From: Globisporangium splendens
Taxonomy: Eukaryota; Oomycota; Peronosporomycetes; Pythiales; Pythiaceae
DNA: 64,000 nucleotides
Assembly: GCA_006386115.1 (NCBI GenBank)
Contig: VFIW01000028.1
Coordinates: 186,001 to 250,000, forward strand
Direction: 5' to 3'
Shown here: in pieces, positions 19,898-44,622 of the stretch
How the letters are laid out: each line of letters opens with the position of its first letter
How positions within the stretch are numbered: the first letter of the stretch is position 1
Notes under the pieces: model-generated
The model's database searches: none
Told to the model about the DNA's origin: nothing
Seen by the model: the letters and a program-made list of their open reading frames with translations, nothing else
Program-made: the position numbers and the translations under genes

Positions 19898-20552
19898 TGT
19901 AAGAGGGCGCTGTTCCAAACAGTCCCTCAAACACGGCACACACGCTTGTGCGGGACGAGGAAGTGATCTCCCGACTTGGAGGGAAGAACGAAGACTTGAG
20001 TACTTGGAGGAAAAATTGCAACTGAATTAAAAATGGTTATGGTTCCTGTCGCTACTTACAAATGAACCCCAAGGGATCCTACAGCTTTTATAACTAAAAC
20101 CTAAACGTACACAATAAAAACTACGAATCTGATATATAAAACCTTGGGTACATTGAGGTTGAACCCACGGGATATTCTAGAAGCTTGATCTTCAAGTCTT
20201 GTATAAAATACCTGCAAAGTGATTGGCTTGCGCCATTCACTTCAGGCGGCAGAGACACGTCGGTCTCGTCGCCAGTCCAGTTTCCCAAGCAGGAACCATC
20301 ACTCAGTACTTGATTAGTACATGGATGTTATCACTCTGTACTGATTAGTACATGAGAACAACATTCCGCACTGATCAGCACAGAGAACACTCGTGACGTC
20401 ATCGAATGACGTCACACGTGCATGTGGGGACTGTATTACTGTAATCCCTTTTGTTATTTGTGTCTCCACAAAGCACGCTGAAGGTGGTGTGTGCCACACT
20501 AGATCTGGGAACAGATCCACCTTCATGTAATGGCTGGTTATGGCCCATTACA
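19898..20552 (-). repeat. Gypsy-1 3' LTR (655 bp)
   Basis: Terminal repeat matching 26907-27559 and the reverse complement of 30124-30775, ends TGTAA...TTACA. It contains the tandem CRE palindromes and G-box (20394-20420) and repeated TGATTAGTACATG motifs (about 20308-20355). The start codon of the antisense frame (20530) lies inside it. Confidence 0.92.
20394..20420. promoter_or_regulatory. Two CRE palindromes and a G-box in the gypsy-1 LTR
   Basis: TGACGTCA occurs at 20394-20401 and again at 20407-20414, forming a 10-bp inverted repeat with a 3-base centre, and CACGTG follows at 20415-20420. TGACGTCA is the classical CREB/ATF bZIP site and CACGTG the bHLH/bZIP G-box. The same array is present at 27401-27427 (5' LTR); in the 30124-30775 LTR one CRE is mutated to TGATGTCA. 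Confidence 0.75.
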
Positions 20553-21696
20553 TCATCCCCTCCTTAAAGTCACAAGTACCTTGTGTACTTTTGCAGACCT
20601 TTCGGAGCAGTTCACTTTCCAATTGGCAATGAAGCGACCAAGTGACCAAGTGAACCGTGAAGAACGTCCGTCGTCCAAGCGACAGCAGACAGCTCCAGAA
20701 CTCTTTGACATTTCTCCCATTCTGAAGAAGAAGGGGGAGCTCGAGTTCTACAAGGAGCGGTTCTTCAGTTGGTGTCGGATCAACGATCGCGATGATCCGA
20801 ACCAACACATCGCAGCCCAGAGAGACTCATGGCGAACATTTGTTCGTCTTGAGAACGAGAACAAGATGGAGCGTCTTCTTCGTCGTGGCAATGCTCGTGC
20901 CGAGAGAAGAACTCCCGCTGACGACAGAGCGAACCGTAGCTCTGGTCGTCGTAGTGTCGTCCCTGGCGACGCTACAAGTAGTTCTCATAGCTGCGGACCA
21001 CGTCGGGAACATCAGACTCCAATGTCTGACGAGGCTCCCACGTGTCCGAGCTCGGTGGATATCCACGCCACCGAACTCTGTAGAAGCGTTGATGGTTCGA
21101 CTGCTTCTTTCCTCGACGATGAGCCGGTCGATCTTCATGATCAACAATCGGCTCAACCACCCAGCGATGCTCTCCCTGAGAGTCTAACAACGGGGGTGGG
21201 GCTGAACGAGAAAACGATTGATCGACTTTGGAAGTGGAAGAGTGCTCATCGTGGGCAAATCGGGGCTTTGCAGCAGCGTTGTTCGACACTTGAGGAACGC
21301 TGCGAGAGTCTCGAGAACCTTGTCGCCGATCATGAGTCGAAGATCGACGTCCTGACAGAAGGTTCTGCCCAGTGTTCGGCTTTGGAGTCCCGTTATGAGG
21401 AACGGTTCCAACAGGTTCAGGACGAACTTGTTCGACTCCGGAAGAACGAGAAGTCTCGTGAGTTGGCTCACGATCGCCTGTTGCGCTCTGTGGAAGAGGC
21501 AGGTTCGGCTCTCGAGGTACTTCGTGGCGAGTACCATTCTCGTCTTCAAGCGTTGGAGGCAGTGAAGGACCAACCCTTCGACGTCCTGCAACTCCTGTAC
21601 GCCGAGAAGAATCTCCAGAGCGATGAGCTGTTTGCTCTTCGCAATCAAGTGGAGAAACTTCACGATCAGCTCGATCGTTTACGGAAGATCTCGTAG
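20530..21696 (+). CDS. Antisense ORF of gypsy-1 (coiled-coil protein, 388 codons)
   Basis: This frame is on the strand opposite to gag-pol, beginning at an ATG inside the 3' LTR; a second, perhaps likelier, start is Met34 (20629). Residues 35-55 are Lys/Arg-rich with a bipartite NLS look (KRPSDQ ... SSKRQQ). Residues 60-105 look folded (FDISPILKKKGELEFYKERF). Residues 130-225 are low complexity. About 230-388 form a long coiled coil (LQQRCSTLEERCESLENLV ... LRNQVEKLHDQLDRLRKIS). It overlaps the 3' end of pol by 725 nt (20972-21696). The sister copy 28980-30146 keeps all 388 codons with about a dozen substitutions and no stop. No known family is recognised. Antisense genes near the 3' end are known in some plant Tat-lineage gypsy elements and in deltaretroviruses; a role in regulating the element is inference. 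Confidence 0.6.
   Translation: MAGYGPLHHPLLKVTSTLCTFADLSEQFTFQLAMKRPSDQVNREERPSSKRQQTAPELFDISPILKKKGELEFYKERFFSWCRINDRDDPNQHIAAQRDSWRTFVRLENENKMERLLRRGNARAERRTPADDRANRSSGRRSVVPGDATSSSHSCGPRREHQTPMSDEAPTCPSSVDIHATELCRSVDGSTASFLDDEPVDLHDQQSAQPPSDALPESLTTGVGLNEKTIDRLWKWKSAHRGQIGALQQRCSTLEERCESLENLVADHESKIDVLTEGSAQCSALESRYEERFQQVQDELVRLRKNEKSRELAHDRLLRSVEEAGSALEVLRGEYHSRLQALEAVKDQPFDVLQLLYAEKNLQSDELFALRNQVEKLHDQLDRLRKIS
20553..20565 (-). promoter_or_regulatory. Gypsy-1 polypurine tract
   Basis: Read on the minus strand, AAGGAGGGGATGA lies immediately before the 3' LTR (TGTAATGG...). It would prime plus-strand DNA synthesis. The identical tract precedes the gypsy-2 LTR at 30111-30123. Confidence 0.85.
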
Positions 21697-24600
21697 GATC
21701 CGCAGATCCACTTGGAAGGTAAGGCTTCAGTCTACCCACATAAAATGTCGGGTGTAGACGCATGCGTGTAGGTATGTCTAGCGTGTATGCATCACCATTG
21801 CATTTCACTACCTTGAACGGTCCAATGAACCTTGGCAGAAGCTTCGAGCTTCCCAAGTTGGACACTGCATGTTCAGGCGGGTTCGCCGTGCTAAGTAATA
21901 CAAGATCATTGATCTTGTAAACTTGCTTGTTCTTCCTTCCGCTCTTGTCTGCTTGTTCCTTTTGCAGATCCTGAGCCTTCGCGATTGCGTCTCGAACAAA
22001 CCTCACAACGGCTTGTCTCCTCACAACAAAGTCATCGACTTGCTGCTCTTCACGACTTGTTAGGCCGTCGAGGGGTTTCATCGAGTCAAAATTGGCTTTC
22101 AACTCGGAAGCAGCATTCAGGTCGTAAGACGACTTCGGCTTGTTTCCATGAGCCGGAGTCCCTCCCCCACTCAAGGTAGAGACCTCACCCATTATGGAAG
22201 CAGGCACTCGAGGGTGAATGCCATAGTTCACATAAAATGGAGAGTGACCTGTCGAGATATGCGTGGAGTTGTTCAACGCAAACTCGGCAAGAGGGAGAAA
22301 CCCACTCCACTCTTTGAAAGACGTTGCGCAGCTGCGCAACACGTCTTCGAGGACACGATTCACTCGCTCTGTTTGACTGTCCGTTTCAGGGTGTGCCGCT
22401 GTTGACATGGACAACTTGGTGTCCAGAAGTCCGAACAGTGCACGCCAGAACTTGGACGTGAAACGGGTGTCACGGTCAGACACGATCTCGACCGGTAGTC
22501 CGTGTAGACGGAATACGACGCCTACAAAGACCTTGGCAGTCTTCTCAGCTGAGATCTTGTCCGAAACAGGCGCAAGATGAACCATCTTGCTGAATCGGTC
22601 CACAAACACAAGGACGCCATTGCGTCCATGTGTGTCTCTTGGAAGTCCGAATACGAAACCCATACTCACAGACTTCCAACTGTCCGATGGGACAGCCAAT
22701 GAACGAAGTGGTGCCTGCGTGGAACCAGAAGGTTTCGCTCGTTGGCAGATCTCGCAAGTCCTCACATACTTGCGCACCCACTTGTACATGTGTGGCCAGT
22801 AGTAATCCCGGGAAAGACTGAGAAACGTTTTCTCACGTCCGAGGCGGCCACCCGAAGGACTGTCATGGTACTCATACAAGAGTCGATGACGCAGACCTTC
22901 GTCGTTGGGAACAACAACCCTTGCTGTATCCCCTTGTTCGACCGCATAGTACAACAACCTATTGTGTACTCGGAAGCGGTGAACTCGCGATCTTGTGCGC
23001 GACGGAAGACCTTGCAGTGCTTTGTCGGAAGGGTCCTTGAAGTACTTCAACAAGTCCTGACATGTTTCGTCAGACTTGTACCCTTCGACGATCTCTTCTC
23101 GCACTGTAGTCGCAGCTCGCACCGCGATCGCTTGAACATCTTCACAGAGTCGACGTGCTCCGTCCGTGTCTTCACTCTTGGTCTTCGGATCGTAATCCGG
23201 ACGTCTTGACAGCGCATCGGCTAAGATGTTCGTCTTGCCTGGCTTGTAGTGTACAACGAAGTTGTACTCTGCAAAGAAGGAGAACCACCTCGCCATTCTT
23301 TGCGACAAATGAGGAGTCTTCACTGCCGTACGCAGGGATGCGTGGTCAGTGCAGACAGCAAAGCGCTCCTCGCCAAGCAGATACACACGGAACTTGACCA
23401 AAGAATACTTCATCGCCAGAAGTTCCTTGTCGTGAACTGTGTAGTTCCGTTCTGCGGGTCGGAGTTGTCGTGACTGATACGACACAACTCGTTCGTGACC
23501 CTCATCATCGTGTTGCGTCAACACACAACCGATGGCATAGTCGCTCGCATCGCAGACGACGTGGAACGGCTTGTCGTGGTTTGGCAGAGCCAACACAGGA
23601 GCTTCTCGAAGACTCCTCTTGACTTCTTCGAACGCCGCCTGATGGTCTTTCGACCACTTCCACTCAACGTCTTTCTTCAAGAGTTGTGTGAGGGGTTGCA
23701 CCAACGCTGCATAATTGCGCGTGTACTTGTGCAAGTAGTTGGCTAAACCCAACCATTGTCGCAGCTGTTTGACATTCTGAGGCACTGGCCAATCGTCAAT
23801 AGCTTTGACCTTCTCCGGATCGACTCGAACACCGCTCTTGCCCACAAAACAACCGAGAACAGGGATCTCGGGGGAGAAGAACATGCACTTCTTCAAGTTT
23901 GCGTAGAGTTTGTTCTCGCGCATGACCTGGAAAACTTGACGAAGATGATCGAGATGAACATCGACATCAGACTTCCCATTCGTGGTCTTACTGTGAACGA
24001 AAATGTCGTCAAAGTAACTTGGTGCAAATGTTCGCAGAGGACGAGGAACGTTCGTGACCATTCGATTGAAGGTCGCAAGAGCATTCTTCAGTCCCTGTGG
24101 CATCACTAACTATTCCCACAGCATACCACTCGGGGTACTCACTGCGGTTAGTGGGACATCGTCTTCGCGCATTCGAATCTGATAGAACCCATCTTTCAGA
24201 TCGATAGCACTAAAGACGGTGCTGCCAACCATTCCATCAAGGATCATGTCCTTGCGTGGAACCGGAGTCTGGGCCGGAATGGTAGCGTCGTTCAGCTCGT
24301 TGAAAGCGTGAACAATGCGCCAACCTCCAGTTGCCTTCTTCACACAGAAAGTGGGGCTGCAATGCGGAGACTTACTCTCTCGCACATGACCAGCCTTAGC
24401 ACGTTGTGCAAAGAACTCGTCGATTGCCTCGACTTGTTCCTTTGGCAACGGCCACTGTCTTGTGATGCAGTACTTCGTGCCAGGAAGTACATCAATCTCA
24501 TGACGAATGCCTCTGTCGAATGGCAACTCGTCCGGCACCTTGTCAGGGAAAATATCTTCATATTCCCTGGCAAGCGCATACACGGGGTTCTTCTTGAGGG

Positions 24601-25156
24601 CGTCCCACGACTGCTCCTCGAATCTTTCCTTCCGTGTCTTTTCGTCCAACACATCTGCATCCGCACTAGATGCTGTGTTGACGAAGCCTTCGTCGACCAT
24701 TTCGACGATCGCACACACCTGCGCAATATCGCCTCTCGCTAGGCTGCGCTCCAGTGTCTTCTTGCTCATTGATGGCAAGGAAATCAACTCTTGGACTGAA
24801 CTTGGAGGATTTTCAATCTTCACGTGACGGATTACATCCACGTCACCTTCTTCATTGTAGACCGCGATATTCACGAACTCGCTTGGAATGTCTTGTGCTT
24901 GGACACTCCCTTCGTCATCACCACTTGTACCTTGATCAGGGGTACTCAAAATTCTTGGCGAAAAACTTCTCTTGCTGGTCTTCTTCTTGTCTTGGGAAGG
25001 GTGTTTGTTCCACTTCCATTCACTCTTGTCAACGCCATCACGAACCTTGTCGTCGTCGATGGCAAAGGAGACAGTCTTTTTCTGGCGCCTGACTGCTCCA
25101 CTTCCGTTCATCTTCTTTAAAATGGGTACCGCTTGTGAACATGGGGGCCATCGCAC
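20972..25156 (-). pseudogene. Gypsy-1 pol: reverse transcriptase, RNase H, integrase, chromodomain
   Basis: One frame from 25156 to 20972 interrupted only by TAG at 24110-24112, where the gypsy-3 protein has Trp (GMLWEWLVMPQGLKNAPATF context). The RT palm has YFDDIFVHS; RNase H begins VVCDASDYAIGCVL. Integrase has its zinc region (HDSPSGGRLGREKTF ... CEICQRAKP). Its core reads SVSMGFVFGLP where the catalytic first Asp should be (gypsy-2 and gypsy-3 have SMDF); SDRDTRF and QTERVN keep the other two acids. The C-terminal part is GPFKVVKCNGDAYTLDIPTR, then a ~160-residue disordered linker and a chromodomain (RFYRVRWRGYPPSSDTWEP). The linker and chromodomain are encoded opposite the antisense frame. 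The first in-frame ATG (KKMNGSG) lies six bases after the protease stop codon, so reinitiation could start it. Confidence 0.9.
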
Positions 25157-25896
25157 ACCGCAATATCACAAGGGCCATCTGGGATCTCTTCCACAGATGT
25201 ATACACCCATACCACTTCATCCGTTGTTGTGCAGCACAAGTCAACATCGCGTGACTTGCCAACGGAGATCTTCATATTCATCCAGTCAATGCTAGGTTGG
25301 TAACGCTTCAACCACGGCATTCCCAGGATGATATCAAACTTGTCATCGAGGTCGAGTAAAATGAACTCGTCTTCACCTCGGAAATCTTCACACTTGATTG
25401 CCAAACGCGCCACGCGCTTCGGCATCTTCACAGTTGACCCATTTGCCAACCGGACAATCATCATCTTTTCTTCATTCGTATCAGGCACGAAGACGCCATG
25501 CCTGACGATCACTTCATTTCGAACAAAGTTGTTCGACGCACCAGTGTCAACCAAAGCTCGTAGAGGCGTTGCAATACCGTCTACATGAACTTTGTGAACG
25601 ATCAAACTTGACATTTGACTGACACTCTTCTCACTCATAGTGGAAACTGCATGTGCTTGATGCACATAGGGGTCAGAGTCCTGTGTCTCCACAACGTCCA
25701 CAGTCCTCTTTTCCGGGCCAGTAGGAGGCCCCTCCCCTACTGTCCATTCCCGTTTTTTGGCCCAAGTGACCGCTCGAACCGACGACCGTAAGAACGATCG
25801 TGGTTGTTCGAACGAGCACCCTGTGTCGTTTGCCGACCCGGCAAAGACACCTTGCAGTTCCGAGCAATGTGACCCGGCTTCCCGCAATGGAAACAC
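25117..25896 (-). CDS. Gypsy-1 protease frame
   Basis: This frame lies -1 relative to gag and overlaps its last 160 nt. It contains the retropepsin active site ALVDTGASNNFV and the flap/second-half motif FDIILGMPWLKRYQPSIDW, so it is a retroviral-type aspartic protease that would process Gag and Pol. It has no ATG of its own near the start and is most simply reached by frameshifting at the slippery heptamer at 25752-25758. It ends at TAA (25117-25119), just ahead of the pol frame, which is again -1. Confidence 0.82.
   Translation of the reverse strand: MFPLREAGSHCSELQGVFAGSANDTGCSFEQPRSFLRSSVRAVTWAKKREWTVGEGPPTGPEKRTVDVVETQDSDPYVHQAHAVSTMSEKSVSQMSSLIVHKVHVDGIATPLRALVDTGASNNFVRNEVIVRHGVFVPDTNEEKMMIVRLANGSTVKMPKRVARLAIKCEDFRGEDEFILLDLDDKFDIILGMPWLKRYQPSIDWMNMKISVGKSRDVDLCCTTTDEVVWVYTSVEEIPDGPCDIAVCDGPHVHKRYPF
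25719..25758 (-). promoter_or_regulatory. Putative -1 ribosomal frameshift signal, gag/protease of gypsy-1
   Basis: In the gag frame the sequence reads CCA AAA AAC, so the heptamer A AAA AAC (25758-25752) has the X XXY YYZ form in correct phase. After a 9-nt spacer, CAGTAGGGG (25742-25734) can pair with CTCCTACTG (25727-25719) in a 9-bp stem with one G-U and a 6-nt loop. The gag stop codon lies within the stem. The -1 frame leads straight into the protease. Confidence 0.8.
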
Positions 25897-26786
25897 TTCC
25901 CATCGTTGCGAGGACGCTCATTTCCAGGCGTGGAAATGTACGAGATGTCCATGGGCTCGGGACCGTCATGCGCAACATTTGATTGCCGCATTGGTCTTGA
26001 CGCGAACCCATGGAACTTCGCTTGCTTGATGCTGAACTCTTCTTGCATCGCGCGTTCAATGGCTTCGTCCAGCGTCTTGGGATACTCGCGGAACAATTGG
26101 TTCCGAATCGGATCATCGTTCAGACCCGTCATGAACGTCACGACTTGCGTCGGAACGTCAATCGGCTCGTCGACGATGCTCGACACCAAGTAACGAGCAC
26201 GTTGTGCATACGAGTGAAGGTCGAAACGGCCTTGACGAAGCTTGAGGAACTCGGCGCGTGCACGCAACTCACTCTGTGGAGGTTCAAACGCCTTCTTGAG
26301 CTCGGTCTTGAAATGACCGTAGCTGGGGAAGCAGTTTAGATCGGCTAAACGCTTGCCATACGCCCAGCTCTTCGCACGACTCGCAAGGTTGGACATCGCG
26401 AACAACACTTGCTGCGAAGGGTCTCGCAGTTGTCTTGCAGTGATCGCTGCATCCAACTCGACGAACCATCGTGAGAGGGGTTCGTTCTCTCCGCCACGAT
26501 ACGAAGAGACGTCAAGCTTCAGTGGCACCGTCCTGATTGAGGAAACAGGGGTTGCGACCTGCTTCCGGGAGGACATGATCTCGTGGTGCATGAAGCTGAC
26601 CACCGCGCTCTTCTGGTCCTCCGGAGACGCCGATCGAAGCAGGCTGACCACGGCAGCCTCTCCGATGACATCTCGCATGCGCTCAAGCGCCATCCACTCA
26701 TGAGAAGACAAATGAGGGAAACCCACAATAGTCAACTCGACAGTTTCCGGTACTGCTGGACCGAGTGGGGTTCCTGTAGCATCCAT
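25737..26786 (-). CDS. Gypsy-1 Gag
   Basis: Intact 349-aa capsid/nucleocapsid protein, ATG at 26786. The central region (LSRWFVELDAAITARQL ... SWAYGKRLADL ... FEPPQSELRARAEFLKLRQG) has the pattern of the Ty3/gypsy retrotransposon gag family, followed by a CCHC zinc knuckle CFHCGKPGHIARNC and a basic tail. It packages the RNA and forms the particle. It terminates inside the hairpin of the frameshift signal. Confidence 0.88.
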   Translation of the reverse strand: MDATGTPLGPAVPETVELTIVGFPHLSSHEWMALERMRDVIGEAAVVSLLRSASPEDQKSAVVSFMHHEIMSSRKQVATPVSSIRTVPLKLDVSSYRGGENEPLSRWFVELDAAITARQLRDPSQQVLFAMSNLASRAKSWAYGKRLADLNCFPSYGHFKTELKKAFEPPQSELRARAEFLKLRQGRFDLHSYAQRARYLVSSIVDEPIDVPTQVVTFMTGLNDDPIRNQLFREYPKTLDEAIERAMQEEFSIKQAKFHGFASRPMRQSNVAHDGPEPMDISYISTPGNERPRNDGKCFHCGKPGHIARNCKVSLPGRQTTQGARSNNHDRSYGRRFERSLGPKNGNGQ

Positions 26787-26893
26787 GTTCCAAACAAGGA
26801 CGCTCGCAGGGTCTTGGGCAGGAATGCGCGACGTGCTTCAAAGCCGCGTCGTCAAACCTCTTCACTTCACTGGGTCGTTGGAAGGACCGCTCG

Positions 26894-26904
26894 AAGTGCT
26901 ACCA
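26894..26904 (-). promoter_or_regulatory. Gypsy-1 primer-binding site
   Basis: TGGTAGCACTT on the minus strand, two bases inside the 5' LTR end; begins with TGG as required for pairing to a tRNA CCA end. The same 11-mer with the same spacing is in gypsy-3, and TGGGAGCACTT in gypsy-4. The tRNA would end AAGTGCTACCA; its identity was not determined. Confidence 0.75.
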
Positions 26905-26906
26905 GG

Positions 26907-27559
26907 TGTAAGAGGGCGCTGTTCACAACAGTCCCCCAAACACGGCACACACGCTTGTGCGGGACGAGGAAGCGATCTCCCGACTTGTAGGGAGGAAGAA
27001 GACTTGAGGGCTTGGAGGAAAAATTGCAACTGAATTGAAAAGGTTACGGTTCCTGTCGCTACTTACAAATGAACCCCAAGGGATCCTACAGGTTTTATAA
27101 CTAAAACCTAAACATACACAATATAACCTATGAATCTGATATATAAAACCTTGGGTACACTGAGGTTGAACCTACGGGATCTTCTAGAAGATTGAACTTC
27201 AAGTCTTGTATAAAATCCCTGCAAAGTGATTGGCTCGCGCCACTCACTCCAGGTGGCAGAGACACGTCGGTCTCGTCGCCAGTCCAGTTTCCCAAGTAGG
27301 AACCATCACTCAGTACTTGGTTAGTACATGGATGTCATTACTCTGTACTGATTAGTACATGAGAACAACATTCTGCACTGATCAGCACAGAGAACACTCG
27401 TGACGTCATCGAATGACGTCACACGTGCATGTGGGGACTGTATTACTGTAATCCCTTTTGTTATTTGTGTCTCCACAAAGCACGCTGAAGGTGGTGTGTG
27501 CCACACTAGATCTGGGAACAGATCCACCTTCATGTAATGGCTGGTTATGGCCCATTACA
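26907..27559 (-). repeat. Gypsy-1 5' LTR (653 bp)
   Basis: Direct repeat of 19898-20552 with scattered substitutions and the same CRE/CRE/G-box array (27401-27427). Its outer end is joined directly to the integrase region of gypsy-2 at 27560. Confidence 0.92.
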
Positions 27560-29704
27560 GCTGCGACTGGAGTGCGAGAAGAGATCGTCGAAGGGTACAA
27601 GTCTGACGAAACATGTCAGGACTTGTTGAAGCACTTCAAGGACCCTTCCGACAAAGCACTGCAAGGTCTTCCGTCGCGCACAAGATCGCGAGTTCACACG
27701 CTTCCGAGTACACAATGGGTTGTTGTACTGGCGGTCGAACAAGGGGATACAGCAAGGGTTGTTGTTCCCAACGACGAAGGTCTGCGTCATCGACTCTTGT
27801 ATGAGTACCATGACAGTCCTTCGGGTGGCCATCTCGGACGTGAGAAAACGTTTCTCAGTCTTTCCCAGGATTACTACTGGCCACACATGTACAAGTGGGT
27901 ACGCAAGTATGTGAGGACTTGCGAGGTCTGCCAACGAGTGAAACCCTCTGGTTCCACGCAGGCACCACTTCGTTCATTGGCTGTCCCATCGGACAGTTGG
28001 AAGTCTGTGAGTATGGATTTCATATTCGGACTTCCACGTGACACACATGGACGCAATGGCATCCTTGTGTTTGTGGACCGATTCAGCAAGATGGTTCATC
28101 TTGCGCCTGTTTCGGACAAGATCTCTGCTGAGAAGACTGCCAAGGTCTTTGTAGACGTCGTATTCCGTCTACACGGACTACCAGTCGAGATCGTGTCTGA
28201 CCGTGACACCCGTTTCACGTCCAAGTTCTGGCGTGCACTGTTCGGACTTCTGGACACCAAGTTGTCCATGTCAACAGCGGCACACCCTGAAACGGACAGT
28301 CAAACAGAGCGAGTGAATCGTGTCCTCGAAGACGTGTTGCGCAGCTGCGCAACGTCTTTCAAAGAGTGGAGTGGGTTTCTCCCTCTTGCCGAGTTTGCGT
28401 TGAACAACTCCACGCATGTCTCGACAGGTCACTCTCCATTTTATGTGAACTATGGCATTCACCCTCGAGTGCCTGCTTCCATAATGGGTGAGGTCTCTAC
28501 CTTAAGTGGGAGAGGGACTCCGGCTCATGGAAACAAGCCGAAGTCGTCTTACGACCTGAATGCTGCTTCCGAGTTGAAAGCCAATTTTGACTCGATGAAA
28601 CCCCTCGACGACCTAACAAGTCGTGAAGGGCAGCAAGTCGATGACTTTATTGTGAGGAGACAAGCCGTTGTGAGGTTTGTTCGAGACGCAATCGCGAAGG
28701 CTCAGGATCTGCAAAAGGAACAAGCAGACAAGAGCGGAAGGAAGAACAAGCAAGTTTATAAGATCAACGATCTTGTATTACTTAGCACGGCGAACCTGCC
28801 TGGACATGCAGTGTCCAACTTGGGAAGCTCGAAGCTTCTGCCAAGGTTCATTGGACCGTTCAAGGTAGTGAAATGCAATGGTGATGCCCACACGCTAGAC
28901 ATACCTACACGCATGCGTCTACACCCGACATTTTATGTGGGTAGACTAAAGCCTTACCTTCCAAGTGGATCTGCGGATCCTACGAGATCTTCCGCAAACG
29001 ATCGAGCTGATCGTGAAGCTTCTCCACTTGATTGCGAAGAGCAAACAGCTCATCGCTCTGGAGATTCTTCTCGACGTACAGGAGTTGCAGGACGTCGAAG
29101 GATTGGTCCTTCACTGCCTCCAACGCTTGAAGACGAGAATGGTACTCGCCACGAAGTACCTCGAGAGCCGAACCTGCTTCTTCCACAGAGCGCAACAGGC
29201 GATCGTGAGCCAACTCGCGAGACTTCTCGTTCTTCTGGAGTCGAACAAGTTCGTCCTGAACCTGTTGGAACCGTTCCTCATAACGGGACTCCAAAGCCGA
29301 ACACTGGGCAGAACCTTCTGTCAGGACGTCGATCTTCGACTCATGATCGGCGACAAGGTTCTCGAGACTCTCGCAGCGTTCCTCAAGTGTCGAACAACGC
29401 TGCTGCAAAGCCCCGATTTGCCCACGATGAGCACTCTTCCACTTCCAAAGTCGATCAATCGTTTTCTCGTTCAGCCCCACCCCCGTTGTTAGACTCTCAG
29501 GGAGAGCATCGCTGGGTGGTTGAGCCGATTGTTGATCATGAAGATCGACCGGCTCATCGTCGAGGAAAGAAGCAGTCGAACCATCAACGCTTCTACAGAG
29601 TTCGGTGGCGTGGATATCCACCGAGCTCGGACACGTGGGAGCCACGTCAGACATTGGAGTCTGATGTTCCCGACGTGGTCCGCAGCTACGAGAACTGCTT
29701 GTAG
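27560..29704 (+). pseudogene. Gypsy-2 integrase-chromodomain (truncated pol)
   Basis: Open for about 714 codons after the junction, and by chance open backwards into the LTR. Integrase has all three acids (SMDFIFGLP, SDRDTRF, QTERVN) and the HHCC zinc region (CEVCQRVKP), so the catalytic core that is damaged in gypsy-1 is intact here. Near the N-terminus a one-base insertion (about 27693) and a one-base loss (about 27730) compensate, changing roughly a dozen residues (HTLPSTQWVVVL against HRFRVHNRLLYY). Chromodomain RFYRVRWRGYPPSSDTWEP. Without RT it cannot mobilise itself but could supply integrase in trans if expressed. Confidence 0.85.
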
Positions 29705-30146
29705 CGTCGCCAGGGACGACACTACGACGACCAGAGCTGGGATTCGCTCTGTCGTCATCGGGAGTTCTTCTTTCGGCACGAGCATTGCCACGACGAAGAA
29801 GACGCTCCATCTTGTTCTCGTTCTCAAGACGAACAAATGTTCGCCATGAGTCTCGCTGAGCTGCGATGTGTTGGTTCGGATCATCGCGATCGTTGATCCG
29901 ACGCCAACTGAAGAACCGCTCCTTGTAGAACTCGAGCTCCCCCTTCTTCTTCAGAATGGGAGAAATGTCGAAGAGTTCTGGAGCTATCTGCTGTCGCTTG
30001 GACGACGGACGTTCTTCACGGTTCACTTGGTCACTTGGTCGCTTCATTGCCAATTGGAAAGTGAACTGCTCCGAAAGGTCTGCAAAAGTACACAAGGTAC
30101 TTGTGACTTTAAGGAGGGGATGATGTAATGGGCCATAACCAGCCAT
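28980..30146 (-). CDS. Antisense ORF of gypsy-2 (coiled-coil protein, 388 codons)
   Basis: Second copy of the antisense frame: same length, same start inside the LTR (30146), same stop. Differences from the gypsy-1 copy are substitutions only (for example QQT/QQI, SWCR/SWRR, RANR/RANP, SDEA/SDVA, RLRK/RLQK, QPFD/QSFD, LYAE/LYVE). It overlaps the sense integrase-chromodomain frame by 725 nt. Codon position 1 of one strand lies opposite codon position 1 of the other, as in gypsy-1. Basic N-terminus, acidic low-complexity middle, C-terminal coiled coil. Function unknown. Confidence 0.58.
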   Translation of the reverse strand: MAGYGPLHHPLLKVTSTLCTFADLSEQFTFQLAMKRPSDQVNREERPSSKRQQIAPELFDISPILKKKGELEFYKERFFSWRRINDRDDPNQHIAAQRDSWRTFVRLENENKMERLLRRGNARAERRTPDDDRANPSSGRRSVVPGDATSSSRSCGPRREHQTPMSDVAPTCPSSVDIHATELCRSVDGSTASFLDDEPVDLHDQQSAQPPSDALPESLTTGVGLNEKTIDRLWKWKSAHRGQIGALQQRCSTLEERCESLENLVADHESKIDVLTEGSAQCSALESRYEERFQQVQDELVRLQKNEKSRELAHDRLLRSVEEAGSALEVLRGEYHSRLQALEAVKDQSFDVLQLLYVEKNLQSDELFALRNQVEKLHDQLDRLRKIS

Positions 30147-30775
30147 TACATGAAGGTGGATCTGTCCACAGATCTAGTGTGGCACACACCACCTTCAGCG
30201 TGCATTGTGGAGACACAAATAACAAAGGGATTACAGTAATACAGTCCCCACATGCACGTGTGACGTCATTCGATGATGTCACGAGTGTTCTCTGTGCTGA
30301 TCAGTGCAGAATGTCGTTCTCATGTACTAACCAGTACAGAGTAATGACATCCATGTACTAATCAAGTACTGAGTGATGGTTCCTGCTTGGGAAACTACAC
30401 TGACGACGAGACCTGCGTGTCTCTGCCACCTGGAGTGAATGGCGCGAGCCAATCACTTTGCAGGGATTTTATACAAGACTTGAAGTTCAAGCTTCTAGAA
30501 GATCCCGTAGGTTCAACTTCAGTGTACCCAAGGTTTTATATATTAGATTCATAGGTTTTATTGTGTATGTTTAGGTTTTAGTTATAAAACCTGTAGGATC
30601 CCTTGGGGTTCATTTGTAAGTAGCGACAGGAACCGTAACCTTTTCAATTCAGTTGCAATTTTTCCTCCAAGCCCTCAAGTCTTCTTCCTCCCTACAAGTC
30701 GGGAGATCGCTTCCTCGTCCCGCACAAGCGTGTGTGCCGTGTTTGGGGGACTGTTGTGAACAGCGCCCTCTTACA
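30124..30775 (+). repeat. Gypsy-2 3' LTR (652 bp)
   Basis: Inverted relative to the gypsy-1 LTRs, TGTAATGGGCC...CTCTTACA, preceded by polypurine tract AAGGAGGGGATGA (30111-30123). One of the two CRE sites is mutated to TGATGTCA. Confidence 0.92.
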
Positions 30776-31683: not shown

Positions 31684-31817
31684 TGTCATGAGCTGAGGTG
31701 GCTGGCATGGCTTCCAACCAATGACTTCATGCCAGCGCACCTTCGCAACTGTCTGGCATCCGTGCGTCTAGAAATAGAAGCAGGTGCTGGGCACAGCTTC
31801 CATGTTTTCAGACAAGT
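31684..31817 (+). repeat. Gypsy-5 3' LTR, left part (interrupted)
   Basis: Follows a purine tract AGTCCGGGGGA and begins TGTCATGAGC. After 134 bp it is cut by gypsy-4. The target duplication CAAGT (31813-31817 and 46802-46806) shows where it resumes; the continuation may end at a TTACA at 47140, giving an LTR of roughly 470 bp. Confidence 0.6.
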
Positions 31818-32253
31818 TGTAACGGTTTGGGTATTCTTGAGATCTGATTGGTCGAAAGTCGGAAAGTCGGAACTTGATTGGATGAAAGTCGGGGACGATG
31901 GCTTGGACTCGGAGGAGGAGGTGGCAACTCGATGGCAAATTGGAAAGTGAATTGAATGGAGGACTTAGTTCGCTAGCGCTACGTCTAAGCCTCCCTGCAT
32001 GCATGCCTATCCTTTTCTTCAACTGATTCGACTTTTCTTCCTATCCAGGTGTCCTGCCTGCACCTGTATTTTTATCTGACTAGTTCCATATAACTGTATA
32101 TATTAGTGTTACATATGAATGAGAGCCTGACCTCGGACTCGAGGTCAGGCACACGTTACACATGCCACGACGCTCCGCACGCTAGGCACGTGCGAAGTCA
32201 GGCACATGCCGATCCTACGCGCGTGCCTGGCGTGCGAGGTCAGGCACACGTGA
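31818..32253 (-). repeat. Gypsy-4 3' LTR (436 bp)
   Basis: Matches 46364-46801 with a few substitutions. Near its right end it contains repeated GAGGTCAGGCAC/CGTGCCTGGCG type inverted motifs (about 32140-32250). Flanked on the left by CAAGT. Confidence 0.92.
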
Positions 32254-33900
32254 CATCCCCCCAGACTTGACTTCGCGTTGGGAGTCTTGAAACTCTTGAA
32301 GGAGTCGATTCCAATGCGAAACATGGCGGATGTTCTTCTCGTATTCCCACGTACTCTCGTGCGCAGGATACCCGAGCCACTTGACCAACCACATTCGTTG
32401 GCGGTTGTGGGTTTTACTGCGAAGTAATGCTTCCACAACGTGCAGAGCCTCACCAGTCTCGTCGCCGAGGATCACGGGGGCTGCCTTCGGAATTGGTCTT
32501 GAATGGAACTTGGTTGGATTCTCAACGTAGTGGCTAAGCAACTCCACATTGAACGCTGGATGCAAGCGCTTCATGTTTGGAGGAAACACCAATCGAGCCA
32601 CATTCTTGTTCACTATTGAGTCGATCTTAAACGGTCCAACCTTCTTCGCTGCCAACTTCGCCTTTTGGAGAGAGGTGCTTTGAGCGACCGTCTTCAAGGG
32701 TAGATTCTTCGTATCTAACATAACGAGATCGCCAGTGTTAAATTCTACCTCGCGACGCTTCCTGTCGTAGTATTTCTTCTGGCGCTCTTGAGCTTGCTTG
32801 AGGTTCTCTTGGGCTAGCTTGACGACTTGTTGGCACTTCTCCGCAAAGTTCTTGGCAAACTCAGCTATATTTACTGGTTCGAAGTTTCCTTCGTCGACGC
32901 CGAACTCTTGGGCAATTAGGTTGCGCACCTTTCTTCCAGTGTCGACTTCAAACGGTGTGAACTTGGTCGACTCATTAACGAGAGTTGCATGAGCAAACTC
33001 GATCGTTCCAAGGTGGCTCACCCAATCGTCTCCATGGTATGACACCATGCATCGCAGCGCATCTTCCAACACGAGGTTCTGACGTTCAGTTTGTCCGTCT
33101 GCTTGCGCGCGATGAGATGTTGTCATGCTCAGCTTGATACCCACGAGCTTGGTCAGCGACTTCCAAAAGACCGACGTGAACTTGGGATCGCGGTCACTGA
33201 TGATGACCTTCGGCAAACCGTGGTGACGAACCACTGCCTCGAAGAATACCTTGGCGGTACCTTCGTCATCTGCTGTCGAGTGTGTTGGATGGTACTTTGG
33301 ACGCTTCGACAACTTGTCCACCGTGACAAGGATTGCATCAAAACCTTCGGACACTGGAAGTCCAGTGATGAAATCCATCGACACAACATCCCAGCATTCT
33401 TGGGGCGTCGGAATTGGCATCATCAAGCCGATCTTCTTCCGATTGTTCGACTTCCATCATGCACAAGTCTGGCAACTGCCAACATACTCGTGAATGTCTT
33501 TTTCCAAGGCGGGCCAGTAATACCATTGAGCCGCCTTTAGCTGTGTTCGACGAACTCCTGGATGAGTAGCCACAGGAGCATCGTGAAACTCTTGAATAAC
33601 ATCTGTGACCAACTTGCTCGAGTTTGGTACACACAATCGCAACACCGGGTGCTTCGTTCGCAAGAACAGAAGACCGTTGCGCTTCTCGAACTTCTCGTTC
33701 CCTTCGCGACTCTGCCACACTTCGGCAAAACTTGGGTCGCGGGAATAGCCAGCTTGAAAGGCTTTCTTCGTCGCTTCGGACAAGTGAACACTTGCCCACT
33801 GCGTGTCGACAGTGTGGACTTGCTCTTGCCGCACTGCCACGGCGCGTCTCTCCCCCGAAAGTCCACAGCGGAGAGAAAGACGGAGCAATCCGAATCTGGC
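32254..33900 (-). pseudogene. Gypsy-4 integrase and chromodomain
   Basis: Integrase zinc region (HDAPVATHPGVRRTQLKAAQWYYW, CQTCA), an in-frame TGA at 33457-33459, then the catalytic core with all three acids (SMDFITGLP, ISDRDPKF, DGQTERQN), C-terminal region (GDLVMLDTKNLPLKTV) and chromodomain (RQRMWLVKWLGYPAHESTWEYE). The reading frame passes directly into the LTR. A frame change near 33850-33950 separates it from RNase H. The zinc region differs from gypsy-1/3, placing it in another family. Confidence 0.85.
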
Positions 33901-36604: not shown

Positions 36605-37139
36605 TGTAACCGGACACTTCCGAGTTACGCAGCACGGTACGTGTGTGAGGAAGCGTATTCAACGCTTCTCTCAAGGACTCTGTTCCGAGAGCGGTTGCCT
36701 GCTTCCTGCAGTGCAACAATCGGTTACCTATAGGTCTCTATAGAGTAACCGTCGATAACCAAAGACTTTAGTTAACGGTAAAAATGGAACTGTTTATTTG
36801 TTGGAGGTTGCCCTCTGTAGGACAACCTGGATTATCTTTATGTAACTATGAACAATAGCAATCTCAAGTGTAATTACTCCCCATGGGGCAATGAGTGGCT
36901 ATGAAAGACTAACGCTAGTTGTCTTATGTGATTGGGTGAAATGCATGTTCAATTATGTCCAATCGGAGGCGCCGTCACTCAGACTGGCTGCCGGCTCCAC
37001 CGTGAAGGTTCGAGCAAGTACGACGAACCTCATGGTTCGGTCTTAAACTTGTTGCGCGTACTCTACGTACCGCAAGGTTCGGTTTGGTTGTGTGGCACAA
37101 CACAAGTGCGTAACCATGTTACAGTGTAACCCCGTTACA
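36605..37139 (-). repeat. Gypsy-3 3' LTR (535 bp)
   Basis: TGTAACCGG...CCGTTACA on the plus strand; direct repeat of 44623-45152 with scattered differences. Flanked on the left by GAACC. Confidence 0.93.
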
Positions 37140-37323
37140 CCACCCCCCACTTAAAGTGCGAAACACTCGAAGGGTCGGTGTGAGAAACGTGTGGATCTCG
37201 CGCGTGTGCGCCGAGAAAGGGGAACATTCGTGTATTCCTCGGGAAAGAGCACAGCGGCGACGCGTGCGTTAATTTCACCGAGTGTTGGCACATATAGTCA
37301 CTGTGCTCGCGCACGTGAGTATC

Positions 37324-38868
37324 ATGGCCACCAACAAAGCTGTCCGCGAGAAGCTCGCGCGACAAAAAGGGGAAGGCGTCGGCACTCTCGTCGAGACTCT
37401 GCGCAAACGCGAGGAAGACAGAGAGGTCGCGTCGAGCGCAAGACGAACGACGGTCACCGCGGATGCGGTCGACGTGCCTGCGGAGAGCGACGGCAGGTCT
37501 GCTCCCACATCTGATAGCGCTCCTGCTATAAGCAGTGAGCTGCGATTCGGAGATCTCCCTTCCGTGAAGCCGCTGTTCGCGCGTGCTTTGGAAGAGGAGG
37601 AAGCGACTGAGGAATTCCTCGTCGTTGACAATGACGGGAGCTCGCTTGAAGACGAGGGAGCGCTCACCATGAAGCTCGGCTCCATCGACGAGTGGGTCGA
37701 GTACGAGGAGTTGCAAAGCGAGCGACACGCCGCTTATCTCCACGAGCTCGAGCGAGATCCATCCGCTGACGTCTCGATGTATCGGACGAAGGAGGAAAAT
37801 GACGCCGTTGAGGCTGTCAACAATCGTAAGAGGAAGCACGAAGTCCTCATTACAAACGAAGAGGCAGGAGTGCGAGCCATCGTTCACGATGAGCTCAAGT
37901 ACTCACTGCCCGAAATGCCGCCGCCAGAACTATGGCCGGCTGGCAAGACCGCATCGAATCTGCTCGCGAGAGCTAGACTTTGTGCGTGGGACTATGACGC
38001 TCAATTTAAAAATTGGCGTGAAAAGCGATTGCGGGGTGAAAATGGGGAATTGCGTATTCACCCGATCCCAGTCGTCCTCTTTGTTGGAGAGACGGAAGAA
38101 GAGTACGATGCCGACTTCATGTCGTGCATCAGTAAAATTAAGGGAGGTAGCACTCGCACAGTGTCTACCGATCCGACAGCGCAACGCAGTCAACGCATGC
38201 AATTTGCAGTTGACCGTGTTCGTCTGTTTCGCTCCAAGCAGGGCGGTGGCACGCCTCTGCGAGCGGGTGGTCGCGCTGGTATCAGGCGACAAATTACTCG
38301 CGCGAATGACAGTCCCTCAGTTGCGCCTCAAAGGCGTCAACAAGATCCGGGACGTCTTCGCGAAGGCGCTCAGCAGGCTCCCACGAGCTCTGCGACACAT
38401 CGTACCCACGCCACTTCACAAGGTAGTGGGTGTTCCCCTTACGCCGCTGCACACGCAGCAGGCGCTCAACATGGTAGTGGCGCTGTCCCTGCTTGTCAAT
38501 CAGCGGGACAGGTGGCGCCCTACTTCGCTTCAGCATCGGTGGTTGCACCAGATGCGATGGTTCAGATGGTTCACGCGAACGCATCGTCTTTGGGGGCGCT
38601 ACAGCAAGACGTCCGTACCCTTCGCCAGCAATATCTGGACGAAACCTCGCTGTTGAAGCAGAGGGTGACAGCGCTTGAGACGGAGCTGAAGGAAGCTCGT
38701 CAGATGCTGGAGGAGTACCATGTCCGCGGGAAGCACTTCCACGCGAGGTACGCTCCGCGAGTGAAGACGCTTTGGGAGAGGCACAACGCGCTCGTGTCTC
38801 GATGGGCGGCGTCTGAGCCCCCTGATGAGACCGACGTGCTCCCGCACTGGGATAAGAATCCACAGTAG
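37324..38868 (+). CDS. Antisense ORF of gypsy-3 (about 514 aa, C-terminal coiled coil)
   Basis: Opposite to pol, beginning at the ATG at 37324, 185 bp inside the 3' LTR; the frame is open from 37282. N-terminus MATNKAVREKLARQKGEG, with two acidic stretches (ALEEEEATEEFLVVDNDGSS). A middle part looks folded (MPPPELWPAGKTASNLLARA, RIHPIPVVLFVGETEEEYDADF), then a low-complexity Ala/Gln/His part, then a coiled coil of about 70 residues (LGALQQDVRTLRQQYLDE, LKQRVTALETELKEARQML). It overlaps the 3' end of pol by 575 nt (38294-38868) with the same strand phase as in gypsy-1, although the protein shows little similarity beyond GALQQ and the coiled coil. Unknown family; intact. Confidence 0.6.
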   Translation: MATNKAVREKLARQKGEGVGTLVETLRKREEDREVASSARRTTVTADAVDVPAESDGRSAPTSDSAPAISSELRFGDLPSVKPLFARALEEEEATEEFLVVDNDGSSLEDEGALTMKLGSIDEWVEYEELQSERHAAYLHELERDPSADVSMYRTKEENDAVEAVNNRKRKHEVLITNEEAGVRAIVHDELKYSLPEMPPPELWPAGKTASNLLARARLCAWDYDAQFKNWREKRLRGENGELRIHPIPVVLFVGETEEEYDADFMSCISKIKGGSTRTVSTDPTAQRSQRMQFAVDRVRLFRSKQGGGTPLRAGGRAGIRRQITRANDSPSVAPQRRQQDPGRLREGAQQAPTSSATHRTHATSQGSGCSPYAAAHAAGAQHGSGAVPACQSAGQVAPYFASASVVAPDAMVQMVHANASSLGALQQDVRTLRQQYLDETSLLKQRVTALETELKEARQMLEEYHVRGKHFHARYAPRVKTLWERHNALVSRWAASEPPDETDVLPHWDKNPQ

Positions 38869-41800
38869 CGTCATGGTAGCGTTTCAGCAAACCCACGTAG
38901 AACACGGGGTGCGTTGCCATTCTCGTTGGGAGATCGAGCTTGTAATTCAAGTCTCCAATCTTCTCCACAACAGTGTATGGCCCGATGAATCGTGGCAACA
39001 ACTTACTCCCGCTGGGGAGCGTTGTGACTGCATCGTTTGGTAGGTTTTTAATGCTTAAAAGCACTTTATCACCCACACAAAACGTTTGTTTGTTCTTTCT
39101 ACCCGATTTATCGGCGTAGAGCTTTTGCTTGTCTTGCGCAGCAGCTAGTTGGTCGCGTACGCGACGCAACAATGCTGCGCGCTCATCGACAAATTGCCGC
39201 GCTGCCGCGACGGCTTTGTCTTGCTTTTTCGTTGCTCTCGCAGCGCGTGCTGCAGAGAGATCTATTTCTGCGCCGGTGGGTGACACCGCGCGTCCTTCCA
39301 TTCGTGGCTGACGCTCACACGAGCAGTCGCCTGATTCCGTCTGAGACTGGCTATTTTTAGCACGAGTACCGTAACTCAGTACCGTGGGAGAGCCATCTAT
39401 AGACACACGAGTACCGTAACTCGGTACCGTGGGTGATCCATCTTTAGGGACACGTGTACCGTAACTCAGTACCGTGCCCGACATGTCAATACTCTGCGTG
39501 CTGTCCGGTAAGACCGTGACAGATTCGGAACGCGATCGCACAGGCGGCGCATCGCGCGCGTCCACGTGAGCGGTCGACACCACGTCCGGTGACGGAGATC
39601 GCGCGCTCGCATCGAGCGCAGCGAGTTGCCCTCCCACCGCAGAACGTTCGACGCCCTCGAACAGAGTGGCGGGTACGCGCGGGTGCCGCAGTGAGTTAAA
39701 ATAGAACGGAGTCACGGCCGTAGAGGCGTGCTCACTGCTATTTATAGCAAACTCGGCGTACGGCAGCCAGCGGCTCCAGTCGCGGGGATGATCGACAGCG
39801 ATGCTGCGAAGAATATCCTCGACGACACGGTTCACGCGCTCAGTTTGCCCGTCTGTCTCGGGGTGATCGGCAGTGGACAACGCCAGATCTGTGCCGAGCA
39901 GGCGAAAGAGTTCGCGCCAAAAGGCAGCGGTAAAACGCGGGTCCCGGTCTGATACAATAGACTCGGGCAAGCCGTGATAGCGGAACACGTGCTCTAAAAA
40001 TAGGCACGCCGTCTCTTGCGCAGTGACATGCTTGCGCACAGGTGCAACATGCACCATTTTGCTCAGTCGGTCGACGAACACGACGACGCCTGTGTTGCGC
40101 GCCTTGTCTTCCGGGAAACCGAAGACGAAATCCATGCTGACCGACTTCCAGCAGTCTTGCGGAATCGGCAGCGGATGCAGCGGCGCTTTGTTCTTGCCCG
40201 CAGGCTTCACGCGCTGGCACTGCTCGCATGAGCGTACATAATTGGCCACCCATTTGTATTGGTGTGGCCACCAAAACACATTAGACACTTGCAAGAAGGT
40301 CTTTTCACGTCCGAGATGCCCACTCGCTGGTGCATCGTGAAACTCATGCAGGATCGAAAGTTTCAGATCCTGGTCATGCGGTACATACACACGCGGGTAA
40401 TCAAAGTTGGACAGTCGATGCCACAACAACCCGTCGTGGTAACTAAACCGAGCAAGCTTTGACTCGAGTTTGGCAGGCAATGACTCTTTGGACGAGCCGT
40501 CAAAGTGAGCAATCAACAAGCGACATTCATCGTCCTTTGCATAAAGCGACTGAATGTTGTCCTTGAGCTTTGTTTGCACTCGACTGATGCTCAGATGCAT
40601 GAGATCAGGAGTGCGCTCCAAACACAGGGCGTCAGAGCTGTCGTCAACGCTCGACTCGTAATCTGGACGGCGCGAGAGCGCGTCCGCCAGAACATTTTCC
40701 TTTCCTGGTTTGTATTCGACCCGAAAGTTGAACTCGGAGAAGAAAGCAAGCCATCGCGCCATTCGCTGCGATAAATGGGGGGAATTAATCGCGGTCCGCA
40801 AGGACGCGTGATCCGTGTACACAACGAACGGTGTCGCACCCAAAAGGTGGACCCTGAACTTCAAGAGGGCGTACTTGATCGCAAGCAGCTCCTTGTCGTG
40901 CACAGGATAATTCTTTTCAGCTGCTTTAAGCAGTCTGCTTTGGTATGATACGACGCGCTCATGGCCGTCATCATCCTTCTGCATCAGCGCACAGCCAATT
41001 GCAAAATCGCTGGCATCGCACACGACACTGAAGGCTTTCGTGTGGTCCGGCAACGCCAGGACAGGAGCGCGAACTAGCGACTCCTTCACGTCAATGAATG
41101 CATTCATGACATCATTCGTCCAGTCCCACTCGACATCCTTTTTCAAGAGATGCGTGAGCGGACGGACTCTTGCCGCATAGTTGTGGCTGTACTTGTGCAA
41201 GTAATTTGCCAAGCCAAGCCACTTGCGCAAGTCCTTGACATTCTTTGGGATCGGCCAGTCGGCGATCGCCTTGATCTTCTCTGGGTCCGCGCGGACGCCA
41301 GCTTTGCCAACATAGCAGCCCAGGATCGGTATCTCTGAGGCGCCAAAGATGCATTTCTTCAGGTTGCAATACAGACTGTTGTCTCGTAAGCACTGCAACA
41401 CTGAGCGCAAATGTCTCTTGTGCACGTCAACGGCACTGAGATCTCCTTCGGCACGACTGTGCACGAAGATGTCATCGAAATAGCTCGGTGCATACGCACG
41501 ATGAGGACGCAGAAGATGCGTTACCAGACGGTTGAACGTCGCTGGTGCATTCTTCAAACCTTGCGGCATAACGAGCCACTCCCACAGCATCCCGCTGGGT
41601 GTGCTTACTGCCGTCAAGGGAACGTCACTCTCTCGCATGAGGATCTGATAGAACCCATCCATCAGATCCAGTGCGGAGAACACTGTCGAGCCGCCCATGG
41701 AGTCGATCAAGACATCCTTTCTTGGGATCGGCGTTTGTGCTGGAATGGTGGCGGCGTTCAGCTTGTTGAAAGCGTGAACAATGCGCCAGCCACCAGTCGC

Positions 41801-42154: not shown

Positions 42155-43389
42155 GCGTGAAACGCAGTCGGAACGACGATCTCGCGGATCTGATCACGCT
42201 CTAGATCCGTAAGAAAGAGCTCATAGCTCATTTCTTCGAGGGATACAATCGCCTCAGCGGTACTCGGCGGCTCATGGAGCGCCGCAAATTCAGCGAAGAA
42301 CACTTCGTCTGATGCGTTTGCTTCCGGACTGCGTGTCGCGCGTCTGAGCGCCACTTCAACGTGAGCGCGATCTATTGACGGATCCGAGATCCTGTCGAAG
42401 GCGCGCAGCGAAGTTGCTGCTGCATTGAGAGATGGGGCAATCATACGCGAGGCGGCCGTTTCCTCAGCAACAGATGCCAATGCACTGTCTCTCTCGCGAG
42501 CTGACAACTTGCGTAGCCCTCGTCGGTTGATGCGAACACGCGACCTCGCGGTTCTGAGCTCCAGTACTGCACCGTCAGGGTGGTACGAGCTGGTTGGCGC
42601 GTGTACACCTGTACTGTCGCTGTCACTTGCGGGGGCTGGCTCGGATGCTCTGGAGCCGCACACTTGCGCACCAGTGTCCACGTCTGGCTTTCTGGCGCTT
42701 CCGCACAAACTGGGCTACCTGCCGCAGTTGATCTCTTTGCTGGGCTCCCTGCCTCAGCGCACCTTCTAGCTGGGCTCCCTGCCACAGCGTGAGTGTTTTG
42801 AGCGGGGCTCGCTGCCGCCGCATGTCTTCCTGCTGGGCTCCCTGCCACAGCGTGTTCAAAGCTCGCATCCATTGCGTGGAAATATTCCCGCAACCTTCGC
42901 TCTCCATCAGAGGAAGGGGTGGAGCTTCCGATTGTGCGTGCTCGCCAATCGATCCAAGGCTGATGTTTCGCCAGCCAAGGCATCCCTAGGATGAGGTCGT
43001 ACCTCGACCCCATCGCTGGTACCACGAACGTTTCTTTGCAGACAAAGTCGCAAAAACTGAAAGAGAGTTCGACTTGAACCCCTTCAGTGTGTACTGTCGA
43101 CCCATCGGCCAGACGCACGATCATCTTCTCGCGCTTGCCACTGTGGACAAGTCGCTCATACGCTTGCAGACTCTGTTCCAGAGCTGCCTTCGAGACGAAG
43201 TTCTGTGACGCACCGCAGTCAACAAGAACCGTCATTTTCTTCTCATAGCCTTCACATCGGCGCTATATACCAACATCTCACTCGGAGCCTTGTTGTCAAG
43301 AGCTCCTGGGACTAAGCTTCCCATCTGCACGACTCTAGTAGTCGGCGACGCCGAAGCTATAGAGTCTGTCTCAGTAGAGCGTCCCGCTT
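42155..43389 (-). pseudogene. Gypsy-3 protease and pre-RT region, frame-disrupted
   Basis: Three frames in succession. 43389-43232 continues gag after a -1 shift (KGKRNVSVEAGRSTETDSIA). 43235-42441 holds the protease active site TVLVDCGASQNFVS (Cys replacing Thr in DTGA) and YDLILGMPWLAKHQPWIDW, then an AGSPA-type repeat stretch. 42708-42061 is the acidic pre-RT segment (FFAEFAALHEPPSTAEAIVS). Every transition is in the -1 direction. The first is explained by a slippery site; the one just before the protease active site falls within a conserved motif and is most likely a one-base mutation. Confidence 0.75.
42700..42870. repeat. Short tandem repeats in the gypsy-3 protease linker
   Basis: Imperfect repeats built on GCTGGGCTCCCTGCC, encoding repeated AGSPA(R/K) units in the protease frame. 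Confidence 0.7.
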
Positions 43390-44550: not shown

Positions 44551-44622
44551 TATGAATCCTTGAGGAAGCGATTCAGGCAGTCACCTCTGCCGGGTCGTAG
44601 ATTGACTACAAGTGCTACCAGT

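Follow-up and report, generated by a model that had tools for sequence, protein, structure and literature searches.

An antisense coding frame under purifying selection overlaps pol in chromodomain Ty3/gypsy elements of the oomycete Globisporangium splendens

Introduction

Antisense genes at the 3′ end of a retroelement are known from the deltaretroviruses, where the product of such a gene, HBZ, has a coiled-coil part that is a zipper. For plant gypsy elements and for the fungal element Boty, extra genes in antisense orientation at the 3′ end are also established (PMC7264820, PMC11963269, PMC8365987). The plant open reading frames (ORFs), among them Grande gene23, RIRE2, Retand ORF4/TRP28 and PvRetro13, lie at the 3′ end in the orientation opposite to gag-pol, occur in most copies and have no clear homologue outside; some of their proteins are nuclear or thought to bind DNA, and the antisense promoters and genes of human T-cell leukaemia virus (HTLV) are discussed beside them (PMC7264820, PMC11963269). 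Here we analyse 64,000 nucleotides of the oomycete Globisporangium splendens (assembly GCA_006386115.1, contig VFIW01000028.1, positions 186,001 to 250,000 of the forward strand). This whole stretch is called the window, and positions below are those of the window. It contains a Ty3/gypsy element with a chromodomain, element 1, at whose 3′ end a coding frame runs antisense to gag-pol. The substitutions that separate its genomic copies show that this frame is protein-coding and under purifying selection, and a second gene of the same kind lies beside it.

The window frame resembles the plant ones in position and orientation. It is present in most copies chosen by DNA similarity, and it is conserved like other genes of the element, with a ratio of nonsynonymous to synonymous change (dN/dS, or w) of 0.22-0.27 versus 0.18 for upstream pol in variants shared between copies. 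It differs from them in its overlap with pol, chromodomain included, which takes up 241 of 355 codons or two thirds of the gene, and from Retand-type TRP28 in having no Transposase_28 match, a family absent both from the 14 Pfam families that P0001 matches with E up to 1 and from the 2 that P0002 matches. With HBZ it shares the antisense 3′ location and a predicted coiled-coil part, but no bZIP (basic-zipper) family is among its Pfam matches with E up to 1, and its conserved start lies outside the long terminal repeat (LTR), although the longest frame begins in the LTR. The gene brtn of Boty/BcGypsy1 (Zhao et al. 2011), likened here on mention only, is another such case from a filamentous plant pathogen, where a gypsy element has an extra gene in antisense orientation. 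Chronos, like element 1, is an oomycete gypsy element with an integrase-chromodomain; it carries an extra RNase H (PMC5348765). In the main text of that survey of oomycete LTR elements, as far as accessible, neither 'antisense' nor 'additional ORF' occurs (PMC5348765), and no antisense gene in any oomycete element was described in the titles, abstract beginnings or passages that our searches of the openly accessible literature listed.

Results

Layout of the antisense frame

Pfam matches place reverse transcriptase (RT), RNase H, integrase and a C-terminal chromodomain in pol of element 1, which lies on the minus strand between a 3′ LTR (19898..20552) and a 5′ LTR (26907..27559), which are 95% identical. 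The sense frame is split into pieces, one of which (20972..24103, minus strand) holds the end of RT, RNase H, integrase and the chromodomain. Partly opposite this piece, a plus-strand frame of 388 codons (20530..21696) is open throughout, as the initial annotation had noticed. A sister copy of the element, in opposite orientation and truncated at 27559, carries the same frame on the minus strand (28980..30146, conserved start at 30047), again with 388 open codons and substitutions only. The annotation was also right that the sense genes of both copies are damaged, one being in pieces and the other cut off, and that the first ATG of the long frame lies within the LTR, whose inner edge at 20552 leaves 23 nt of the frame inside. 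The conserved part of the gene, 355 codons from Met34 to the stop, occupies 20629..21696 on the plus strand; by coordinates, codons 34-147 lie between pol and the 3′ LTR, and codons 148-388 lie opposite pol (20972-21696).

Selection outside the pol overlap

The window copy was compared by the NG86 method with the diverged copies L069, L070 and L071, which represent other subfamilies. For codons 34-147, dN/dS was 0.27 against L071, 0.24 against L070 and 0.25 against L069 (dN 0.363, dS 1.440). Among 32 close copies, variants present in at least two copies comprised 8 nonsynonymous (N) and 12 synonymous (S) changes (w 0.22, p 0.0009), and singletons comprised 26 N and 10 S (w 0.86). Five control frames over the same stretch (33 copies) gave shared w values of 1.37, 1.73, 1.77, 2.35 and 0.43. 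With a w of 0.22-0.27 in codons 34-147, over close copies and subfamilies alike, the coding gene proposed in the initial annotation is borne out.

Selection inside the pol overlap

In the overlap, the wobble base of the antisense codon is the second codon base of pol, and this phase is the same in both antisense genes of the window. The NG86 ratio of the antisense frame, uncorrected for pol, was 0.30 against L071, 0.38 against L070 and 0.49 against L069. Shared variants in the overlap gave N24 S31 for the antisense frame (w 0.27, p 1.5e-6) and N43 S12 for the pol frame (w 1.37); upstream of the overlap, pol gave N22 S44 (w 0.18).

Each possible change was then sorted by its effect on both proteins (33 copies). 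In the linker between integrase and chromodomain (21161..21693, minus strand), shared variants that change pol and are silent in the antisense frame reached 5.24 per 100 opportunities, compared with 1.32 for the reverse class, silent in pol and changing the antisense protein, and 0.72 for changes affecting both. The counts of the first two classes were 29 vs 8 (p 0.00013). Singletons were flat, with 1.99, 1.48 and 1.65 per 100 for the same three classes and 11 vs 9 for the first two. Identity in the linker was higher for the antisense protein than for pol in all three diverged copies (0.95/0.88 for L071, 0.72/0.56 for L070, 0.60/0.46 for L069). Pol-changing, antisense-silent variants are thus in excess and antisense identity is the higher one; selection acts there on the antisense rather than on the pol frame, and we read these patterns to mean that the antisense gene writes the pol linker.

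The chromodomain itself (20984..21163, minus strand; PF00385, E 9.7e-11, pol residues 981-1040) gave shared counts of 3, 4 and 5 (1.60, 2.14 and 1.35 per 100), numbers too small to tell the two frames apart. Identity there was higher for pol in three of three comparisons (antisense vs pol 0.84/0.90 for L071, 0.84/0.89 for L070, 0.65/0.76 for L069).

State of the frame in other copies

Random stops were not found in most other genomic copies. When 40 copies were chosen by DNA similarity of the frame, 29 were open, 26 in full and 3 from codon 29; 4 had stops, and 7 were absent from the protein-match list, 6 of which have a length that implies a frameshift. The 33 close copies comprised 28 that are open over the full length (two without the usual stop), two with a deletion (L003, L005), two with an in-frame stop (L004, L032) and one, L006, whose frame stops near codon 344 after a frameshift.

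Start of the gene

The initial annotation had placed the start of the gene in the LTR, and this part of it was not supported: conservation begins at codon 34 (20629), which lies 76 nt inward of the 3′ LTR. Among 18 family members that were hand-chosen from 80 and aligned, Met is found at codon 34 in all 18, and 14 of the 18 records begin there. The upstream extension (codons 1-33, 20530..20628, plus strand) consists of 23 nt of LTR followed by the complement of the polypurine tract, and is probably untranslated. It shows shared changes N7 S2 and singletons N1 S4, counts too small to be firm. L003 and L005 carry their deletion around codons 30-33, and the frame is open from there on. On this sequence evidence the true start is probably codon 34 and not the LTR ATG.

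Just before Met34, and not within the LTR, a block at 20612..20627 (plus strand) resembles, with one mismatch, the oomycete core-promoter pattern of initiator (INR) and flanking promoter region (FPR), YCAYTYY, 2 nt, MWTTTNC (PMC3599244), and its INR core is retained in L069, L070 and L071. With one mismatch allowed, the window contains the pattern 9 times vs 3.9 in shuffles, and transcription starts inferred in P. infestans lie 32-144 nt from the ATG (PMC3599244), farther than the block does; because of these two points the block is a candidate and a lead only.

Perfect matches to the same pattern were seen at 31935-31950 and 46481-46496 (both minus strand), sharing 15 of 16 bases with the block. 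They lie inside a 441-bp repeat (31815-32255 and 46361-46801, 97% identity) that looks like the LTR of another element.

The antisense protein

A single query returned 79 homologous proteins, 42-97% identical over 26-96% of the query, and a profile returned 84. Most are G. splendens gene models named 'hypothetical protein, partial'; the others are jgi, ena and lgn records. In three NCBI gene models, P0084, P0088 and P0046, antisense genes are fused to Gag or Copia domains, and these fusions seem likely to be annotation artefacts across adjoining elements.

An AlphaFold2 model built on the 18 rows had a mean confidence (pLDDT) of 70. Confidence was low up to about residue 55; helices followed at 71-126 (ten-residue means 83-93 over 61-120), then a second low-confidence region at 127-216 and a single helix of 169 residues, 219-387, mostly above 90. 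The protein is thus predicted to have a small helical N-domain (~57-126), a likely disordered middle and one long helix. A 3.5-residue periodicity in this helix was matched by 6 of 500 shuffles, in agreement with the long coiled coil of the initial annotation; for the helix of the second gene the figure was 31 of 500. The basic N-terminus was recovered as well: residues 34-54 read MKR...KRQQ, with the pattern KR, 13 residues, KRQQ or KRQR, which by eye resembles a nuclear localisation signal (NLS), and K35, R36 and K50 are invariant or nearly so. The pol chromodomain lies opposite the low-confidence middle of the model, and the pol linker opposite the long helix.

A second antisense gene

A second chromodomain element (36605-45152) shows the same layout. 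Its antisense frame of 514 codons (37324..38868, plus strand) begins 185 nt outside the 3′ LTR (36605..37139, minus strand) and overlaps, at 38294-38868, a pol piece that includes the chromodomain (38294..41698, minus strand). BLASTP detected no kinship between the two antisense proteins. Homologues of the second number 34, down to 38% identity. Compared with the diverged copy L072, its codons 1-322, outside pol, gave dN 0.517 and dS 1.697 over 316 codons (w 0.30). The AlphaFold2 model had a mean pLDDT of 58, with a better-predicted region at ~190-306, low confidence at 308-407 and a helix at 409-495. By coordinates, residues ~334-385 face the chromodomain and the helix faces the pol linker, which is the arrangement of the first gene too.

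Exchange of the 3′ end between subfamilies

One copy of the element (locus G000:C12:838974-841626) has an integrase 95% identical to that of the window, combined with an antisense gene of the P0054 type (C12:840586, 92% identical to P0054), and P0054 is 59% identical to P0001. In addition, dS between L070 and the window copy is small outside the overlap (0.17) and large inside it (0.39), and L071 shows the reverse (0.36 and 0.12). From the unlike pairing in the first copy and this contrast in dS, the 3′ end seems to have been exchanged between subfamilies, an outcome that template switching would produce.

Arrangement of element 1 and its sister

Over 19898-30775, the complete minus-strand element abuts the truncated plus-strand sister at 27559, and the outer ends show no evident target-site duplication. 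The 5% divergence of the LTR pair speaks against simple youth of element 1, and age or recombination may be behind it. Given this divergence and the lack of an evident duplication, the pair may have arisen by rearrangement.

Discussion

The reading we favour, held with about as much confidence as doubt, is that this chromodomain Ty3/gypsy element carries a coding antisense frame, under purifying selection from codon 34, for a protein predicted to be an oligomeric coiled coil, which likely enters the nucleus and would serve element propagation as an accessory factor. Antisense transcription would start near Met34, just inward of the 3′ LTR; gag-pol would be expressed from the 5′ LTR of an element, and the accessory protein from the 3′ end of that same element. 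The protein would oligomerise by its coil, enter the nucleus and help the element; once in the nucleus it might, as a guess, bind element DNA or chromatin, or modulate sense transcription. The flexible part of each gene product would lie opposite the folded part of the other, which could be how two proteins share one DNA stretch. Taken as a whole, the initial annotation stands in its antisense gene of a chromodomain gypsy element, with a basic NLS-like N-terminus and a long coil, kept across copies; the start in the LTR is the part that found no support.

Several observations weigh against this reading. Stops were found in 21 of 106 scored copies of the antisense frame (28 stops in all, 85 copies stop-free; best 106 of 500 candidates) and in only 3 of 121 scored copies of the integrase (best 121 of 877), two lists that reach different depths. 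In view of these figures, damaged sense genes beside an open antisense frame, as in the two window copies, are no sign that the antisense frame was selectively retained. When 40 copies were chosen by integrase DNA, 18 had a listed open antisense frame, 4 were listed with stops and 18 had none among the best-scoring matches listed. Because stops are commoner than in the integrase, some transpositions may do without the antisense protein, or it may act in trans; an optional or trans-acting helper would fit the excess. As to sampling, antisense protein similarity was the criterion for 25 of the 33 close copies, a choice that favours conservation, and the near-neutral singletons suggest that the resulting bias is small. 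Openness among close copies is weak evidence because they differ little, with 34 to 36 private changes in codons 34-147 over 32-33 copies, and it is for this reason that the subfamily comparisons are the test; the DNA comparisons with diverged copies cover four copies (L069, L070, L071, L072), all listed as open. For the second gene, 21 of 84 scored copies had stops (best 84 of 189 candidates, counted by hand), the w of 1.07 in its overlap against L072 rests on too few changes to be informative, and the shared variants of 30 close copies (N14 S9, w 0.56) are weak. A distance of 15 nt separates the INR-like block from Met34, shorter than for the starts in P. infestans, and the second gene has no clean INR+FPR match. 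Finally, the predicted template-modelling scores (pTM) of the two proteins are low, 0.28 and 0.29, and the profile, Pfam and fold searches gave no family or fold match of weight.

Considerably less probable than a helper, and its main rival, is a brake, that is an HBZ-like or copy-number-control factor damping sense transcription or replication of the element. A basic start, a long coil and an antisense origin resemble the regulatory role suggested, from HTLV, for the antisense proteins of plant Retand (PMC11963269, PMC7264820), and stops commoner than in the integrase are what one expects if loss of the gene leaves transposition going. Selection among copies would, however, hardly preserve a brake, whereas the main tests gave a dN/dS of 0.22-0.30, and the protein lacks a basic-zipper match in Pfam. 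A protein that stays in the cytoplasm as a structural helper, for instance in particle assembly or RNA packaging, would also make use of a long single predicted helix for oligomerisation, and the weak matches of the profile search included LINE-1 ORF1p coils (E 0.11 and 0.27). We find this unlikely in view of the conserved basic NLS-like start and of the lack of a Gag or zinc-knuckle Pfam match for P0001.

Two further explanations dispense with the protein. The transcript might be what matters, an antisense RNA pairing with gag-pol RNA and feeding or blocking silencing; small RNAs of both orientations occur along Gypsy elements of P. infestans (PMC3522703), and such a role has been proposed for plant antisense ORFs (PMC7264820). 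As the sole role this is very improbable, since selection tracks the codons of one frame, in two genes, a pattern that an RNA role alone does not give. That the frame is a mere by-product, open by chance of pol and base composition, we can hardly credit. Another reverse frame over the same DNA is indeed open for 164 codons in the window copy, and 71 of 5000 synonymous recodings of pol leave the overlap of the second gene open; for the first gene, only 2 of 5000 recodings of the overlapped stretch did so, and the non-overlapping parts stayed open in 26 of 5000 shuffles (first gene) and 0 of 5000 (second). The dN/dS results, and a pol linker that follows the antisense constraint, also speak against chance.

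Returning to an accessory protein, we would give an even chance to a broader statement: in oomycete chromodomain retrotransposons, the DNA of the pol linker has been taken over by an antisense accessory gene of ancient origin, its coil dictating the linker residues, each protein being disordered where the other folds, and two gene families whose N-domains lack kinship have this layout, by convergence or domain replacement. Since antisense 3′ genes themselves were already known, what is new here is two such families in oomycetes and a deep overlap with pol that is dominated by the antisense gene.

A practical warning comes with these elements, as the gene catalogue of the pathogen names dozens of clusters of such transposon frames 'hypothetical protein'. 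Their many copies in several subfamilies are also a natural data set for two proteins that share one DNA stretch. If our reading is true, they are a clear example of gene overlap, with selection over a long shared stretch borne by the antisense frame and not by the enzyme gene, and the oomycetes would join plants and fungi as another major group whose LTR elements have antisense accessory genes.
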